Shown piece by piece: positions 2,757 to 25,023 of a DNA stretch of 32,092 nt. This stretch comes from Methylococcaceae bacterium. Its GTDB lineage: Bacteria > Pseudomonadota > Gammaproteobacteria > Methylococcales > Methylomonadaceae. Numbering within the stretch: position 1 is the first letter of the stretch; each line of letters starts with the position of its first letter. The notes under the pieces are model-generated. The model saw nothing but the letters and a program-made list of their open reading frames with translations, did no database searches and was not told the origin of the DNA. The stretch covers positions 1 to 32,092 of the forward strand of contig SPJM01000030.1 in the NCBI GenBank assembly GCA_006844585.1. The letters run 5' to 3'. The position numbers and the translations under genes were made by a program.

Positions 2757-2775
2757 TCAAGCGCAGGTAAGTGTT

Positions 2776-2860
2776 GGCTTTCCTACGCCGGTATTAGCCG
2801 GTTCAGGTACAAAGGGTTTTTCTCAGCCGAATTACGCAACAAAACGGCACCCCTAGCCTT
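2776..2860 (-). promoter_or_regulatory. TPP riboswitch (THI element) of thiC
   Basis: On the minus strand the leader carries the conserved TPP aptamer: GGGGTGCC, then GGCTGAGAAAAACCCTTTG, then ACCTGAACCGGCTAATACCGG and CGTAGGAAA. The outer helix P1 closes with GGCT (about 2858-2855) and AGCC (2779-2776). It ends about 44 bases before the thiC ATG. Family knowledge says TPP binding lowers expression, either by blocking the ribosome site or by termination. No U-run hairpin follows the aptamer, so translational control is the likelier mode. Confidence 0.96.
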
Positions 2861-3085
2861 GCGGATAGCCGTTTAAAATAAATGATATAAGCTGAAATTG
2901 CAAGATAAAACTCAATACAACCCTTAACCATTTCCTTATAAATCAAAGGCTTTCTTAAAATATTTAAATCCTGCGAGTGACAATTTCATACCGATTGCCG
3001 CCAAGCTTTGCAAACCTGTCTTGAAATACACAGGCTGCTTTCTTCAAGTAAAACCCCATTTTTCTGTAATATTTCCTTCATATTA

Positions 3086-9008: not shown

Positions 9009-10358
9009 TTACAGTAGAAATATTGTCGCCAAACCCAAGAAGGCCATAAAACCGATTACATCGGTAACCGTTGTTAATAACACCCCGCCCGCCAGGGCTG
9101 GATCAATACCCATTTTATCCAAAATCACCGGAATACTGGCGCCCGCCAAAGCCGCGCACACCAAATTAATGACCATTGCCGCGCCCAGCAGCAAGCCTAA
9201 GCTCATACTCTGGAACCAGATACCACCGATACTGGCGACCACCACCGCCCAGACAACGCCATTCAAGCTGCCTACCGCCAGCTCCTTCAAAAGTAATCGA
9301 CCGGCGTTGGCGCTGCTGATTTGTCGCAAGGCCAAACCACGCACCACCAAGGTTAAGGTCTGACTGCCCGCTATACCGCCCATACTGGCGACAATCGGCA
9401 TCAATACCGCCAAAGCGACAATCTCTTTCAAGGTTGCCTCAAACAGGCCGATCACCCAGGAGGCCAAAAAGGCGGTAAATAAATTAACCCCCAGCCAAAC
9501 CGCTCTGCGCTTGGCGCTCACCCCGATCGGCGCAAACATATCTTGCTCTTCATCCAGACCGGCCATACTCATAATCGAATGGTCGGCTTCTTCCCGGATC
9601 ACATCCACCACATCATCAATGGTGATGCGGCCTAATAATTTTCCGTTTTCCTTAACCACCGGCGCGGAAACCAAATCGCGCTGTTCAAACAAAATGGCGA
9701 CATCATGAGCGGGCATCTGATAAGAGATGGTCTCCGGGCGCTTATCCATCAAGCTGGAAACTTTGGTTTCGCCGGAATGCGTCAGTAAAGCTTCAACCGA
9801 TAATATGCCTTTTACGATATCGCTACGATCCACCACAATTAAGCTGTCGGTAGAAGACGGCATTTGCCCGCGCTGTCTTAAATAACGCAAAACAACATCC
9901 AGGGTAACATCCGAGCGAATCGTCATCACATCCATAGACATTAAGCCGCCGGCGGTATGGTCATCGAAGGCCAGCGCCGTCTCCATCCGGTTGCGCTCAT
10001 GCATGCCGATAGACTCCATCACCTGAGACAACAACGGTTCCGGCAATACATGCAGCAAATCAACCATCTCATCGGATTCCAGGTTTTCCGCCGCCTTGAT
10101 CAAATCATTTCGATCGGTAATCGCCAACAGGCTTTGACCGACTTCGGTATGCACCCGCACCAGAATTTCTCCCATTACATTGGGCGGGATCACTTTCCAA
10201 ATGCTCTCTCTCTGCTGATAATCCAGCGCCTCAAGGATATGCGCGGTTTCCGCAGGGTATAGCGAATGGATAAAATTTCTAATCTCAAATTGCGAGCCTT
10301 TTTCCAATACCTCCTGCGCCTGATCCAATACAGTCTTTGTTTTTTCTTGAGTTGCCAT
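9009..10358 (-). CDS. mgtE: Magnesium transporter MgtE
   Basis: MgtE is a gated Mg2+ channel/transporter of the inner membrane. The 449-residue protein has the full layout: an N-terminal superhelical domain (about 1-130), two CBS domains (about 131-255, including MSMDVMTIRSDVTLDVVLRY and GKLLGRITIDDVVDVIREEA), and a C-terminal membrane part of five helices (about 275-449). The pore-lining stretch with PIVASMGGIAGSQTLTLVVR is present. In the family the CBS domains sense cytosolic Mg2+ and close the pore. It is the last gene of the minus-strand block and is separated from rapZ by a 158-bp palindromic element, so it probably has its own promoter. Confidence 0.95.
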   Translation of the reverse strand: MATQEKTKTVLDQAQEVLEKGSQFEIRNFIHSLYPAETAHILEALDYQQRESIWKVIPPNVMGEILVRVHTEVGQSLLAITDRNDLIKAAENLESDEMVDLLHVLPEPLLSQVMESIGMHERNRMETALAFDDHTAGGLMSMDVMTIRSDVTLDVVLRYLRQRGQMPSSTDSLIVVDRSDIVKGILSVEALLTHSGETKVSSLMDKRPETISYQMPAHDVAILFEQRDLVSAPVVKENGKLLGRITIDDVVDVIREEADHSIMSMAGLDEEQDMFAPIGVSAKRRAVWLGVNLFTAFLASWVIGLFEATLKEIVALAVLMPIVASMGGIAGSQTLTLVVRGLALRQISSANAGRLLLKELAVGSLNGVVWAVVVASIGGIWFQSMSLGLLLGAAMVINLVCAALAGASIPVILDKMGIDPALAGGVLLTTVTDVIGFMAFLGLATIFLL

Positions 10359-10514
10359 AAGTTACTGGTGATAAAAATTGTTATTATTCAATCGCAATTG
10401 CGAGATTGTTATGGCGCAACCATTTTTAATACAGCAAGCAGCGCCTTTCCTTGTTACAAAAGGCATATAATACAACGATACGCCGTTAATGGCATCCCAA
10501 ATCGACGCTTATTC

Positions 10515-10672
10515 AGGAACGTTCAGGAAATAATTTCGACAACTGACTTGCCTTTTTATCCGCCTTCTGCGTTCCACAAACAGTTACATAGCTTGCTATG
10601 CGCCTGTTTGTGCGCCTTGAAGGCGAATAAAAATTCTTCGCCAGTTGCCGAAATTATTTCATTCCCGTTCCT
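10515..10672. repeat. 158-bp palindromic element, copy A
   Basis: The element starts AGGAACG and ends CGTTCCT. The outer 24 bases (10515-10538 and 10649-10672) are inverted repeats matching at 20 of 24. Inner nested arms include a 15-base pair (14 matching) around the CGCCTTC/GAAGGCG motif, ACAAACAG with CTGTTTGT, and a central CATAGC-TT-GCTATG. A second copy at 23755-23912 has the same length, with a 40-base identical core (10575-10614 here). The right end contains the rapZ stop codon. No ORF is convincing inside it. It resembles ERIC- or MITE-type palindromic repeats. Confidence 0.85.
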
Positions 10673-11528
10673 AGCTAAGTTCTCGGTGCCTGACAATAAT
10701 ATTCTTGCGACTATCCTTAAAATATACGCCCAAGGCCTCCGTCAAATAAACCGAGCGGTGTCGTCCTCCGGTGCAACCGACCGCGATTGTTAAATAGCTG
10801 CGATTATCTGCTTCAAAACGCGGCGCCCAGCGCTCAACAAAACCTAAAATGTCTTCAAAAAACTGCTTAACCACGTCTTCTTCCTGCAGAAAATTGACAA
10901 CGCCTTGGTCAAGGCCGGTCAAAGGTCTCAACTCCTTAACCCAATAAGGATTCGGTAAACTGCGGGCGTCAAAAATAAAATCCGCATCTAACGGTACGCC
11001 ATGCTTAAAGCCAAAAGACAACAATTGCATGACCATCTGTTTTTGCTCGCTTTCACCCAACTGGCTTTTCAAGATTTCCCGCAATTGATGATAGCTGGTA
11101 AAGCTGGTATCAATCACAATATCAGCGCATTCGGCAATCGGCCTCAGCATATCCTTCTCAATCTGCAAGGCCTCTTTCAGCGGCACATCAATATTAGTCA
11201 AAGGGTGTCGGCGACGGGTCTCGCTATATCTTTTCAACAAGATATTTTCTTCCGCCTGCATGTACAGAACCTCGCACACCAAACCTTGGCCTCTGATATT
11301 TTCAATTTTGGCGAAAAAATCTGTTAATTCTTCAGTCTGATTGCGCGCATCAATGCCGATAGCAGTCTTGGCGTAAGTTCCTTGATCCTTAAGCATGATT
11401 TGTTGGACAAACTCGTCCAACAGCGTAAAGGGGAGATTATCAATACAAAAAAAACCGTTATCTTCCAGGGTATCGAGCGCGATACTTTTACCTGAACCGG
11501 ACAAACCGCTGACGATAAGAAGTTTCAT
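10671..11528 (-). CDS. rapZ: RNase adapter protein RapZ
   Basis: RapZ binds nucleotides and RNA; in enterobacteria it hands the small RNA GlmZ to RNase E and so tunes amino-sugar synthesis. The 285-residue protein matches the usual length. Walker A GLSGSGKS is at residues 8-15 and the Walker-B-like FCIDNLP segment follows at 27-33. The C-terminal RNA-binding half contains FGFKHGVP, FDARSLPNPYW and the conserved GCTGGRHRSV. It lies downstream of rpoN-hpf as in other gammaproteobacteria, but the ptsN gene usually found between hpf and rapZ is absent. Its stop codon lies inside the right end of the 158-bp palindromic element. Whether a GlmZ-like target exists in this organism cannot be told. Confidence 0.95.
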   Translation of the reverse strand: MKLLIVSGLSGSGKSIALDTLEDNGFFCIDNLPFTLLDEFVQQIMLKDQGTYAKTAIGIDARNQTEELTDFFAKIENIRGQGLVCEVLYMQAEENILLKRYSETRRRHPLTNIDVPLKEALQIEKDMLRPIAECADIVIDTSFTSYHQLREILKSQLGESEQKQMVMQLLSFGFKHGVPLDADFIFDARSLPNPYWVKELRPLTGLDQGVVNFLQEEDVVKQFFEDILGFVERWAPRFEADNRSYLTIAVGCTGGRHRSVYLTEALGVYFKDSRKNIIVRHRELS

Positions 11529-21811: not shown

Positions 21812-22447
21812 ATGTTAACAATCGCAGTTTCTAAAGGACGCATCTACGAAGATGCGCTGCCATTATTGGAAGAAGCCGGCATCGTGCCGATAGATGATCC
21901 GAAAAAAAGCCGCAAGCTGATTTTACAAACCAGTCGCGAAGATGTGCGCCTGGTGATTATCAGAGCCACTGACGTGCCGACTTTCGTCGAATACGGCGCC
22001 GCCGATATGGGCATCGCAGGTAAAGATGTATTATTGGAGCATGGCGCGGAAAATTTATATGAACCGCTGGATTTAGGCATTGCCGGTTGTCGCCTGATGA
22101 CCGCCGCCCCGGTCGGCGCCCCGCCGATCAGCGGACGCATCCGGGTAGCCACCAAATATGTGAAAACCGCGCAGAGTTATTTTGCTGACTTGGGCATACA
22201 AGCGGAAATCATTAAGCTGTACGGATCTATGGAATTAGCGCCGCTAGTCAGTCTGGCCGATTGTATTGTGGATTTGGTGGACACCGGCAACACCTTAAAA
22301 GCCAACGGCCTTGAAGCGCGCGATTTAATCACCCATATCACTTCGCGTTTAGTGGTTAACAAAGCATCGATGAAAATGAAGCACCGTGATATTCAGCCTT
22401 TGTTAGATCAATTTGAAGTCACTTTGCAACAACGCAATAACAGTTAG
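21812..22447 (+). CDS. hisG: ATP phosphoribosyltransferase, short form HisG
   Basis: HisG condenses ATP and PRPP in the first step of histidine synthesis. At 211 residues this is the short form (HisG-S), which lacks the C-terminal regulatory ACT-like domain. It needs the HisZ subunit, a histidyl-tRNA-synthetase paralogue, for activity and feedback control. Visible family features are [20 protein letters not shown], the [11 protein letters not shown] substrate loop and the PRPP-binding [14 protein letters not shown]. hisZ is not in this window and must lie elsewhere if the pathway works. An AGGA site stands about eight bases before the ATG; hisD follows after 7 bases. Confidence 0.96.
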
Positions 22448-22454
22448 GTTATTT

Positions 22455-23768
22455 ATGTCAGCAATCAGCATCACTCGCCTGGACAGTCAGGCCGACAACT
22501 TTAATCAGCAATTACAAGCGCAATTGGCTTGGGATGAAAGCGACGATTTAAGCGTTCATCAGCGGGTGCTTGAAATTATTGCCGAAGTGAGAAAAAACGG
22601 CGACAAAGCGGTTATTGAATACAGCAATCGTTTCGATCAATGTCAATTCAAAAAACCGTCTGATCTGCAACTGGACCCGGCCAAATTAAAACAAGCCTGG
22701 GACAGCCTCAGCGCGGAAAAAGCCGATGCTTTACAAACCGCCGCCAACCGCATTCGCGCTTATGCCGAAGAACAAAAAATGCAATCCTGGCAATATACCG
22801 AGGAAGACGGTACGGTTTTAGGCCAAAAAGTCACCGCTTTAGATAGGGCGGGGCTTTATGTGCCCGGCGGCAAAGCCTCATATCCGTCTTCAGTGCTAAT
22901 GAACGCCATTCCCGCCAAAGTTGCCGGGGTCGGCGAGTTGATTATGGTAGTTCCGACACCGGCCGGCGAAACCAACCCCATGGTATTGGCCGCCGCTTAC
23001 TTGGCGGGAGTCGATAAAGTATTTACCATCGGCGGGGCGCAAGCTGTCGCCGCTTTGGCTTACGGCACCGCATCCATCCCGGCGGTTGATAAAATAGTCG
23101 GACCCGGCAATATTTATGTCGCCACCGCCAAAAAAATGGTATTCGGACAAGTGGGAATAGATATGATCGCAGGCCCTTCGGAAATTCTGGTGATCTGCGA
23201 CGGCCAAACCAACCCGGACTGGATCGCGATGGATTTGTTCTCCCAAGCCGAGCATGATGAAAACGCACAAGCGATTTTGATTTCCGATGATTCGGCCTTT
23301 TTAGAGAGCGTTGAACAATCCATTAATAAGTTATTGCCGGAAATGGAGCGCGCCGAAATTATTCGCGCATCCTTGCAAAGTCGCGGCGTACTGATTAAAG
23401 TTGCCGATTTGAATGAGGCGGCTGAAGTCGCCAATCAAATCGCGCCGGAACATCTGGAATTATCGGTCGCCGACCCGGAGACTTTAAACCGGAAAATCCG
23501 CAACGCCGGCGCAATATTCATGGGGCGTTACACAGCCGAAGCTCTGGGCGATTATTGCGCCGGACCCAATCATGTTTTACCGACTTCCAGCACGGCGAGA
23601 TATTCTTCGCCATTGGGCGTTTATGATTTCCAAAAACGCTCTAGCATTATTAATTGCTCTGCACAAGGCGCGGACAAACTGGGGAAAACCGCATCCGTTC
23701 TAGCTAGAGGCGAAAGCTTAACCGCTCACGCCCGTTCTGCGGAATATAGAATTAAGGAACGTACATGA
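22455..23768 (+). CDS. hisD: Histidinol dehydrogenase HisD
   Basis: HisD oxidises histidinol to histidine in two NAD+-dependent steps and uses Zn2+. The 437-residue protein shows [33 protein letters not shown] and [16 protein letters not shown]. The active-site GPSEILVI, the zinc-binding FSQAEHDE, and the C-terminal [13 protein letters not shown] with nearby zinc ligands also fit. The frame extends upstream to 22413 inside hisG; the ATG at 22455 (MSAISITRL) with AGG six bases upstream is preferred. The last codons (KERT-stop) lie within the left end of palindromic element B, so the C-terminus may have been altered by its insertion. Confidence 0.97.
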
Positions 23769-23912
23769 AATTACTTGAACATTTGACTTGTCTTTTTTCT
23801 CGTCTTCGGCGTTGCACAAACAGTTACATAGCTTGCTATGCGCCTGTTTGTGCGTCTTGAATACGAAAAAAAATCCTGCGCCAAATGCCCAATTTATTTC
23901 ATTCCCGTTCCT
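23755..23912. repeat. 158-bp palindromic element, copy B
   Basis: This copy is the same length as element A, with the same AGGAACG...CGTTCCT ends, the same 40-base core (23815-23854) at the same offset of 60 bases, and a shared 19-base right end. The outer 24-base arms match at 18 of 24. The middle arms differ in sequence from copy A yet still largely pair with each other, so structure seems to be kept. It fills the hisD-hisC gap and its left end supplies the last codons of hisD. The frame of hisC runs back through it but is not expected to be translated. Confidence 0.85.
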
Positions 23913-23943
23913 AAATAAACCAGTCATCAAAAATTTAACGGAT

Positions 23944-25023
23944 ATGTCTCAGAATTTAATCCATTCATTATTTAGAAAAGAAGTGCTGGCCATGTCGGCT
24001 TACCCGGTCGCCGATCCGGGCAAATTGATAAAACTGGACGCTATGGAAAATCCTTATCAATGGCCTGAACAGGCGCTTGAACAATGGCTGAAAACCATTA
24101 AAAACAGTCCGTTAAACCGCTACCCTGATCCGCAGGCCAAATCCTTAGCCGCCGTCCTGAAAACGCTTTATCAGGTTCCAACGGAAAGCGAACTTATTTT
24201 GGGCAACGGCTCAGATGAGATCATTCAAATCCTGTTAATGGCCTTAGCGCCGGACGCACATATCGTCACGCCGGAGCCGGGTTTCGTCATGTACAAGCAA
24301 ATCGCCCGTAGTTTAGGGCTGAATTACCACGGCATTGCATTGAATGCTGAGGATTTTTCCTTAGACATGCCCGCCATGCTGGCGGCGATTGAACAATATA
24401 ATCCCGCTTTGATTTTTCTGGCTTACCCGAACAATCCGACCGGTAATTTGTTTTCCGAACAACAAATAAAAATCTTGTTGCAAGCGACTGAAGGATTAGT
24501 GGTTATCGATGAAGCTTATGCCCCCTTCACCGACGCCACATTCATGCAATCGCTGACAGACTATCCGAATTTACTGGTCATGCGCACGGTTTCTAAACTG
24601 GGTTTGGCCGGATTACGGTTGGGCTATATGGTTGGCGATAAAAACATTATCGCCGAGCTGGATAAAATCCGTCTGCCCTATAATATAAACATACTGACCC
24701 AAATAACAACAGAATTCGCTTTGCAACACGGCGATTTTTTGACCCGGCAAACTCAAACCCTAAGACAAGAGCGCGACGCTTTACTGCAACAATTACTACA
24801 AATCGAACAAATCAAAGCATTTCCAAGTTCAGCAAATTTTATTTTGTTTAAGTCCTTAAACAAAGACGCGTCTGCAGTTTTTGAATCAATCAGAAACCAG
24901 GGCATTTTGATTAAAAACATGTCTGCTCACCACCCATTATTGGAAAACTGTTTACGGGTCACTATCGGCACAGAACAAGAAAATGCATTGTTTTTAAGCG
25001 CATTGAAAAAAGCATTGCACTAA
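23944..25023 (+). CDS. hisC: Histidinol-phosphate aminotransferase HisC
   Basis: HisC is a PLP-dependent class II aminotransferase that makes histidinol phosphate from imidazole-acetol phosphate and glutamate. From the ATG at 23944 the protein is 359 residues, the family norm. It has LDAMENPY, NRYPDPQAKSLA, LGNGSDEIIQ, YPNNPTGN and the Schiff-base lysine Lys218 in RTVSKLGLAGLRLGYMVG. The open frame extends to 23788 through palindromic element B, but MSQNLIHSLFRKEVLAMSAY is the natural N-terminus. The ribosome site is weak. The element between hisD and hisC may affect co-transcription. Confidence 0.96.
   Translation: MSQNLIHSLFRKEVLAMSAYPVADPGKLIKLDAMENPYQWPEQALEQWLKTIKNSPLNRYPDPQAKSLAAVLKTLYQVPTESELILGNGSDEIIQILLMALAPDAHIVTPEPGFVMYKQIARSLGLNYHGIALNAEDFSLDMPAMLAAIEQYNPALIFLAYPNNPTGNLFSEQQIKILLQATEGLVVIDEAYAPFTDATFMQSLTDYPNLLVMRTVSKLGLAGLRLGYMVGDKNIIAELDKIRLPYNINILTQITTEFALQHGDFLTRQTQTLRQERDALLQQLLQIEQIKAFPSSANFILFKSLNKDASAVFESIRNQGILIKNMSAHHPLLENCLRVTIGTEQENALFLSALKKALH

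Follow-up and report, generated by a model that had tools for sequence, protein, structure and literature searches.

The locus and its two palindromic elements

The window, as we call the whole stretch of DNA that was analyzed (32,092 nucleotides from a Methylococcaceae bacterium), contains two gene pairs with a palindromic element in each gap. On the minus strand, rapZ (10671 to 11528; PF22740 and PF03668) is followed downstream by mgtE (9009 to 10358; PF01769), and on the plus strand hisD (22413 to 23768; PF00815) precedes an aminotransferase gene (23944 to 25023; PF00155), which we named hisC from its position after hisD. The first-pass annotation had described two stretches of 158 bases (10515 to 10672 and 23755 to 23912) that start with AGGAACG and end with CGTTCCT. 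Both are present, are 84% identical to each other, and share an exact core of 40 bases at the same offset (10575 to 10614 in copy A and 23815 to 23854 in copy B). Each also folds, as had been proposed, into one long hairpin, with predicted energies of -65.4 kcal/mol (z score, -11.1) for copy A and -50.1 kcal/mol (z score, -6.7) for copy B, and in neither case was any of 200 shuffled sequences as stable.

The proposed unit of 158 bases holds for these stretches but not for the mobile length, which is 156 bp (GGAACG...CGTTCC), since the first A and the last T are bases of the TNA target. On the plus strand, copy A (subtype A) occupies 10516 to 10671 and copy B (subtype B) 23756 to 23911, with core hairpins, bounded by eye, at 10547 to 10640 and 23787 to 23880; that of copy A is recognizable across end classes and genera. 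Copy B retains an intact duplication (TAA at 23753 to 23755 and at 23912 to 23914, plus strand), while copy A does not, having TCA on its left (10513 to 10515) and TAG on its right (10672 to 10674). The latter overlaps the stop codon of rapZ, which does lie in the right end of copy A: this TAG (10671 to 10673, minus strand) is made of the first element base and two flank bases. The final codons of hisD (..ERT*) likewise come from copy B. Elsewhere in the window, a TPP riboswitch (RF00059, 70.2 bits; 2763 to 2864, minus strand) is found directly upstream of a minus-strand open reading frame of 628 amino acids (864 to 2750) that, from its position, is perhaps thiC.

A dispersed repeat family

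A non-autonomous palindromic repeat family had been postulated from these two copies, and searches of the genome and its relatives found far more of them. In the source genome (G000), a draft assembly of 3.68 Mb in 376 contigs, a search with the whole element gave at least 49 alignments and full-length matches in at least 17 places, one of them starting at base 2, with 40 of 125 candidates scored. A regular expression run over the fetched loci collected 51 complete copies, a set that leaves out duplicates, an artifact of the expression (L090), and copies lacking 15 flank bases (e.g., L008, at a contig end) and that missed at least one further copy (L015). A strict left-end motif occurred at 51 sites of this genome versus none for the reversed control, and a looser one occurred at 93 versus 4; these counts are underestimates, because even the ends of copy A differ from the strict motif at one base.

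Matches to the whole element were found in 18 of 61 genomes, and when 121 genomes of the bacterial family were searched, 46 had the end motif with a TNA flank, the source genome being included in both counts. The exact 39-base core retrieved one named record from the genome collection, a contig of a Methylomonas sp. MAG (L059), a search from which records of the source genome were perhaps excluded. No match was found to the exact core pattern in viral contigs, to a 98-base core in plasmids and phages, or to the whole element in Escherichia coli. The copies read with their flanks fell, by eye, into subtypes A, B, and C, each of ca. 156 bp. Other copies were as short as 30 bp (minimal forms) or, carrying inserts at discrete positions, as long as 357 bp.

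Target site and its duplication

Identical 3-bp flanks were found in 32 of the 51 copies versus 16.6 expected, a value that none of 20,000 shuffles of the right flanks reached, and no other duplication length or register rose above chance in this set. TNA was present on both sides of 45 copies, with agreement of the middle base in 31 (17.9 expected), and the wider context was mostly YTNAR. Copy A is among the 19 copies without identical flanks. The same held in the relatives, where 35 of 39 complete elements had identical 3-bp flanks (19.4 expected; 0 of 20,000 shuffles); these were taken from 67 loci (60 new and 7 earlier) of genomes G014, G139, G070, and G143, with G139 providing only 3 complete elements from 20 loci. 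A target duplication, one of the features that the first-pass annotation had suggested looking for, is thus present as 3 bp of TNA. The terminal inverted repeats that bound the elements form an end helix (alignment columns 1 to 6 with 151 to 156) that is 98.4% paired in 31 copies. Short, dispersed in many copies, enclosed by terminal inverted repeats and a target site duplication, and noncoding, because of their length (156 bp) and hairpin, these elements are MITEs.

Insertion at gene ends and stop codons

The hisD junction of the source genome reads AGAATTAA, then the element, then TAAATAA. When the element and one TAA are removed, hisD therefore ends in RIK*, as an empty site would, and exactly this terminus is found in 8 of 23 relatives, including 3 of 5 of the same genus; the other relatives vary (e.g., RI*, RLK*, RIKS*, or longer). 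Judged from this comparison, the insertion of copy B altered the C terminus of HisD from RIK* to RIKERT*, so that the last residues annotated for this protein are supplied by a transposon. At rapZ, relative G022 has GAACTCAGCTAA where the source genome has GAACTTAGCTAG followed by GAACGG, which is consistent with an insertion at the stop codon. Neither an end (with at most 1 mismatch) nor the core was detected within 600 bp of the gene end at any of 29 rapZ or 29 hisD loci of relatives (among the 30 rapZ loci, including our own, one had <300 bp past the gene end).

Exact placement of a stop codon at the element boundary was seen in 15 of the 51 copies (16 ends), and for every one of these 16 ends the empty site, when reconstructed, had the same stop. 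Compared with a background of ca. 6% of noncoding TNA sites at stops, the enrichment in this genome had a P value of 4e-7, which is approximate, since the null model used open reading frames of at least 100 codons and partly overlapping loci near elements. We do not take this enrichment to hold for the family as a whole, given that only 2 of 39 elements in G014, G070, G139, and G143 were placed exactly; two near cases were L319, with a stop at the boundary that is absent from the empty site, and L322, with a stop 13 bases inside the element. Retention in this lineage, and not a choice of target, may therefore account for the signal in the source genome.

An insertion at a stop codon leaves a stop in place, given that TAA and TGA are themselves TNA targets and that T/TA joined to the first G of the element gives TAG. 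Stop codons are here spared by the target and the first base of a transposon acting jointly. Since TNA covers both TAA and TGA, the target accounts for the position of copy A on the rapZ stop better than a role in rapZ would, a role that is disfavored because none of the 29 rapZ loci of relatives carries an end or the core.

A probable ISAzo13-family partner

A full transposon with matching terminal inverted repeats, for which the first-pass annotation had suggested looking, was found among elements of the ISAzo13 family. At L183, two ends separated by 1.32 kb surround a split ISAzo13-family transposase, the two pieces of which, searched apart, matched PF07592 with E values of 1.3e-29 and 1.3e-63. 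In 121 genomes of the bacterial family, 35 had a PF07592 match and 30 were above the cutoff, compared with the 3 gammaproteobacterial genomes to which an earlier IS-family survey confines ISAzo13 (PMC9208149).

Many of the 30 PF07592 loci examined were fragments, and only 3 were complete with identical flanks. These elements of relatives (L194, L195, and L196) measure 1,327 bp and have GGAAYGAGCACGAAATAAMT ends, with a terminal sequence of GGAACGAGCACGAAATAACT or near variants. They are flanked by TTA/TTA, TTA/TTA, and TAA/TAA and contain single stop-to-stop frames of 411, 411, and 405 codons, which matched PF07592 with E values of 3.7e-105, 4.4e-105, and 5.6e-105, respectively. The YTNAR context fits L194 and L196, while L195 has a C after the right TTA. 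Both ends were found with reservations at another 3 loci, namely, L191 (at the locus edge), L192 (related GGAATGAGCACAAATTAATT ends, 2.0 kb apart), and L205 (TAA/TTA flanks), and one such end only was found at L199, L206, and L211. The rest of the 30 had no such ends, including the three best-scoring transposases (L188 to L190).

The ends of the best MITE copies and of these insertion sequences were 95% identical over 22 bp. In the window, the left (10516 to 10537, plus strand) and right (10650 to 10671, minus strand) terminal inverted repeats of copy A agreed in 17 and 16 of their first 20 bases with the best of ten ISAzo13-type ends, and both ends of copy B agreed in 17, values reached by 0, 1, 0, and 0 of 100,000 shuffles compared with the same ten ends. 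No similarity was detectable in the interior, and with nothing in common beyond the ends, the MITEs are not simple internal deletions of the insertion sequence. MITE ends occurred in 21 of 35 genomes with PF07592 versus 25 of 86 without it (Fisher P value, 0.002, presuming that both searches drew on the same 121 genomes and with relatedness uncorrected). PF07592 had no match in the MITE-rich genomes G115, G138, and G070 and only fragments in G014 and G139.

From these end and target matches, we consider it highly probable (roughly 0.88) that the elements are a MITE family mobilized in trans by ISAzo13-family transposases. A separate insertion sequence of ca. 1.33 kb would encode the DDE transposase, which would recognize terminal inverted repeats of ca. 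22 bp (GGAACGTgCACGAAATAACTT..) and insert the MITE at TNA, mostly YTNAR, with duplication of TNA. A helper in the same genome is needed for current activity but not for descent. PF07592 gave no match in the draft assembly of the source genome (376 contigs), and mobilization would therefore not be current in this genome, unless the assembly failed to capture the gene; the transposase was presumably present formerly and has since been lost. A helper transposase family can thus be proposed for an abundant repeat of a probably methane-oxidizing bacterial lineage.

Other candidate partners were set aside. An IS5-type transposase (PF01609) had been our first guess because of the target and an IS5 end sequence, but no GGAACG/TNA pair surrounded the 2 loci of the source genome or 27 loci of relatives, a sample drawn from 320 matches in 16 genomes that falls short of a full exclusion. 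DDE_Tnp_1 matches were numerous in some relatives (65 in G111 and at least 107 in G124, with 107 of 483 candidates scored there). Two long end pairs (L178 and L184) turned out to be separate MITEs around a 5'-nucleotidase gene and tilS.

Conservation of the hairpin and alternative explanations

In an alignment of 31 complete copies (27 from the source genome and 4 from relatives), 97.4% of the pair cells were standard pairs, and pairing dropped to 37 to 50% in slid controls. Change on both sides was observed at 16 pairs and in 120 cells, versus 37.7 ± 4.7 cells in shuffles (0 of 500 reached this value), and the number of further pair types (29) showed no excess over shuffles (29.4). In a set of 30 cores covering several genera and end classes, 95.2% of the cells paired, and 82 cells had double changes versus 21.2 ± 3.5 (0 of 500); the excess was smaller for pairs with double change (11 versus 8.2; 9 of 500 shuffles reached it) and for further pair types (31 versus 26.9; 10 of 500). 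All of these counts come from structures derived from the same alignments and are inflated by related copies. The covariation that the first-pass annotation had proposed as a check on the structure is thus found both in whole copies and in cores, and this compensatory change shows that the palindrome is maintained, the two arms presumably being kept in step.

The palindrome might have been maintained for its role in RNA, as a functional 3' structure (an mRNA stabilizer or attenuator) under selection, with mobility being secondary. Such a primary role would accord with the pairs kept and changed on both sides, with a core still recognizable across genera, and with the 15 of 51 copies that sit exactly on stop codons in the source genome. 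Hairpin-templated copying could produce covariation as well, however, and so could selection acting on the substrate of transposition, so that covariation is not proof of an RNA function. The positions are not conserved at the rapZ and hisD loci of relatives (0 of 29 each), and the stop placement was not replicated (2 of 39). Neither copy matched an Rfam covariance model at the gathering score (the best score around copy A was 19.5 bits versus a cutoff of 90), and the terminator role that had been suggested is not supported, since no intrinsic-terminator-like site (a GC-rich stem and then a T run) is present at copy A or B. We therefore regard a primary RNA function as improbable. The elements are best accounted for as selfish MITEs, tolerated where they lie in gaps or at gene ends, and a 3' hairpin effect on the rapZ/mgtE or hisD/hisC mRNA is possible as a candidate by-product.

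A repeat of the REP/BIME type, mobilized by a REP-associated tyrosine transposase or an IS200/IS605-like enzyme, would also be palindromic, present in many copies, and mosaic, as our elements are with their inserts. Here, however, insertion duplicates 3 bp of target, and REP/BIME repeats are not known to duplicate theirs. The long terminal inverted repeats match those of DDE elements. In addition, a published account of REPs gives, alongside their palindromes and mosaic arrangement, a size of 20 to 40 bp and GTAG or CGTC tags (PMC3733652), and the ends here are GGAACG, with no such tag. Taken together, these differences make such an origin very improbable.

Comparison with known systems

The closest counterpart of the proposed MITE family is the ISAzo13 family itself (DDE, PF07592), with which it shares terminal inverted repeats as well as the 3-bp duplication of TNA, the literature also giving 3-bp duplications for ISAzo13 elements (PMC10045372). 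The difference is that the window elements are gene free and share the ends alone. Among known MITEs with a helper, MITEAba12 with ISAba12 (PMC6382973) and RUP with IS630-Spn1 (PMC2229807) are, in the accounts consulted, similarly short and noncoding, with ends identical to those of the helper and a target duplication or motif. They depend on other insertion sequences, with a 9-bp duplication in MITEAba12 (PMC6382973) and TA targets in RUP (PMC2229807), and the excerpted texts of both papers describe no exchange of cores and ends. YPAL and RPE resemble our elements in their size (roughly 100 to 170 bp) and palindromic or long stem-loop form, but the passages on them mention no ISAzo13-type ends, and YPAL has duplications varying from 3 to 26 bp and internal inverted repeats (PMC2229807). 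In the titles and abstract beginnings of papers retrieved from the open-licence PMC literature, we found no description of the present MITE family. ERIC elements, of roughly 100 to 170 bp and also palindromic or with a long stem-loop, are like the window elements too.

Possible exchange of ends around a common core

Ends and interiors of these elements did not always go together. By eye, GGAACG ends enclosed unrelated palindromes in G014, G027, G138, G143, G070, and other genomes, and the same core was found within seven other end types: GGAATGG, GGYAAYTC, GGCGATT, GGGYATG, GGACTGAG, GCACCCAAG, and TACTTCGCGCGG. These classes were delimited by eye among the loci available, so that seven is no exhaustive count, and GGAATGG might equally be treated as a GGAACG variant. 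Members free of inserts in the GGAATGG, GGYAAYTC, GGCGATT, GGGYATG, and TACTTCGCGCGG classes measured 157 to 162 bp, compared with 156 bp in the GGAACG class, while core-bearing GGACTGAG and GCACCCAAG elements were seen only with inserts. In the source genome, the GGACTGAG...CTCAGTCC class included L292, L293, L295, and L296 with the core and L081 (84 bp) with the P1 module only, and the class running from GCACCCAAG to CTTGGGTGC or CTTGGGTAC included L285, L291, L294, and L297, all with the core.

Identical 3-bp flanks were present in 15 of 22 elements of the six non-TA classes, a raw tally with no shuffle control (GGAATGG, 3 of 5; GGYAAYTC, 3 of 3; GGCGATT, 2 of 3; GGGYATG, 2 of 2; GGACTGAG, 4 of 5; GCACCCAAG, 1 of 4), and two of these pairs were off consensus (TGG/TGG in L038 and TAT/TAT in L293). 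The TACTTCGCGCGG-end elements with the core, of 161 to 162 bp and with TA flanks, were L041 and L055 (G015), L042 (G003), and L056 (G010). In all 4 TACTTC elements, ATAC is preceded by T and GTAT is followed by A, a pattern that we read as a probable TA duplication; these TA flanks might fit a different transposase superfamily.

One way to see this pattern is to take the inner core of ca. 94 bp as the unit that is really conserved or mobile and the GGAACG ends as only one of several outer coats derived from different insertion sequences. The occurrence of one core in seven other end types, five of them with insert-free members of 157 to 162 bp, and of GGAACG ends with unrelated interiors would be expected from it, but the near-constant total length argues for an in-register change of ends and not for a core jumping into other elements, and on balance we think this unlikely. 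A second proposal, which we advance tentatively and with the odds still against it, is that a palindromic lineage of ca. 157 bp kept its hairpin core and replaced its terminal inverted repeats at least 7 times, in register and on both arms, including one switch from a 3-bp TNA to a TA target, and was carried by successive transposases of differing specificity and even superfamilies. The palindromic lineage ranges over three families (f1, f3, and f5) within a single order of bacteria. If true, this would be a transposase-hopping MITE, with the hairpin letting both ends change together. A hairpin core that occurs with several sets of ends would allow testing of how a nonautonomous element changes its transposase.

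The inserts were also modular. Stem modules of nearly 50 bp, P2 (CTACATGGATGTAGG..) and P4 (CGGCAACTGCTCC..), recurred at fixed places (in L018, L026 to L029, L061, L069, L085, and others), and P4 was found at 23 sites of the source genome, with several of these sites lying in elements that have other ends. In G014, four loci (L105 to L108) contained GGAACG elements of ca. 100 bp with an interior palindrome like CGTTCGTGCTGAGC(C/T)TGTCGAAGCATGAAC, and in some of these loci sequence like this interior also occurred outside the elements. Finally, L065 of the source genome (G000:C162:32832-37850) contained a pair of direct repeats, each roughly 80 bp long, which start like a left end (GNAACGTGAATTTGATAACGCATCC..) and then diverge.
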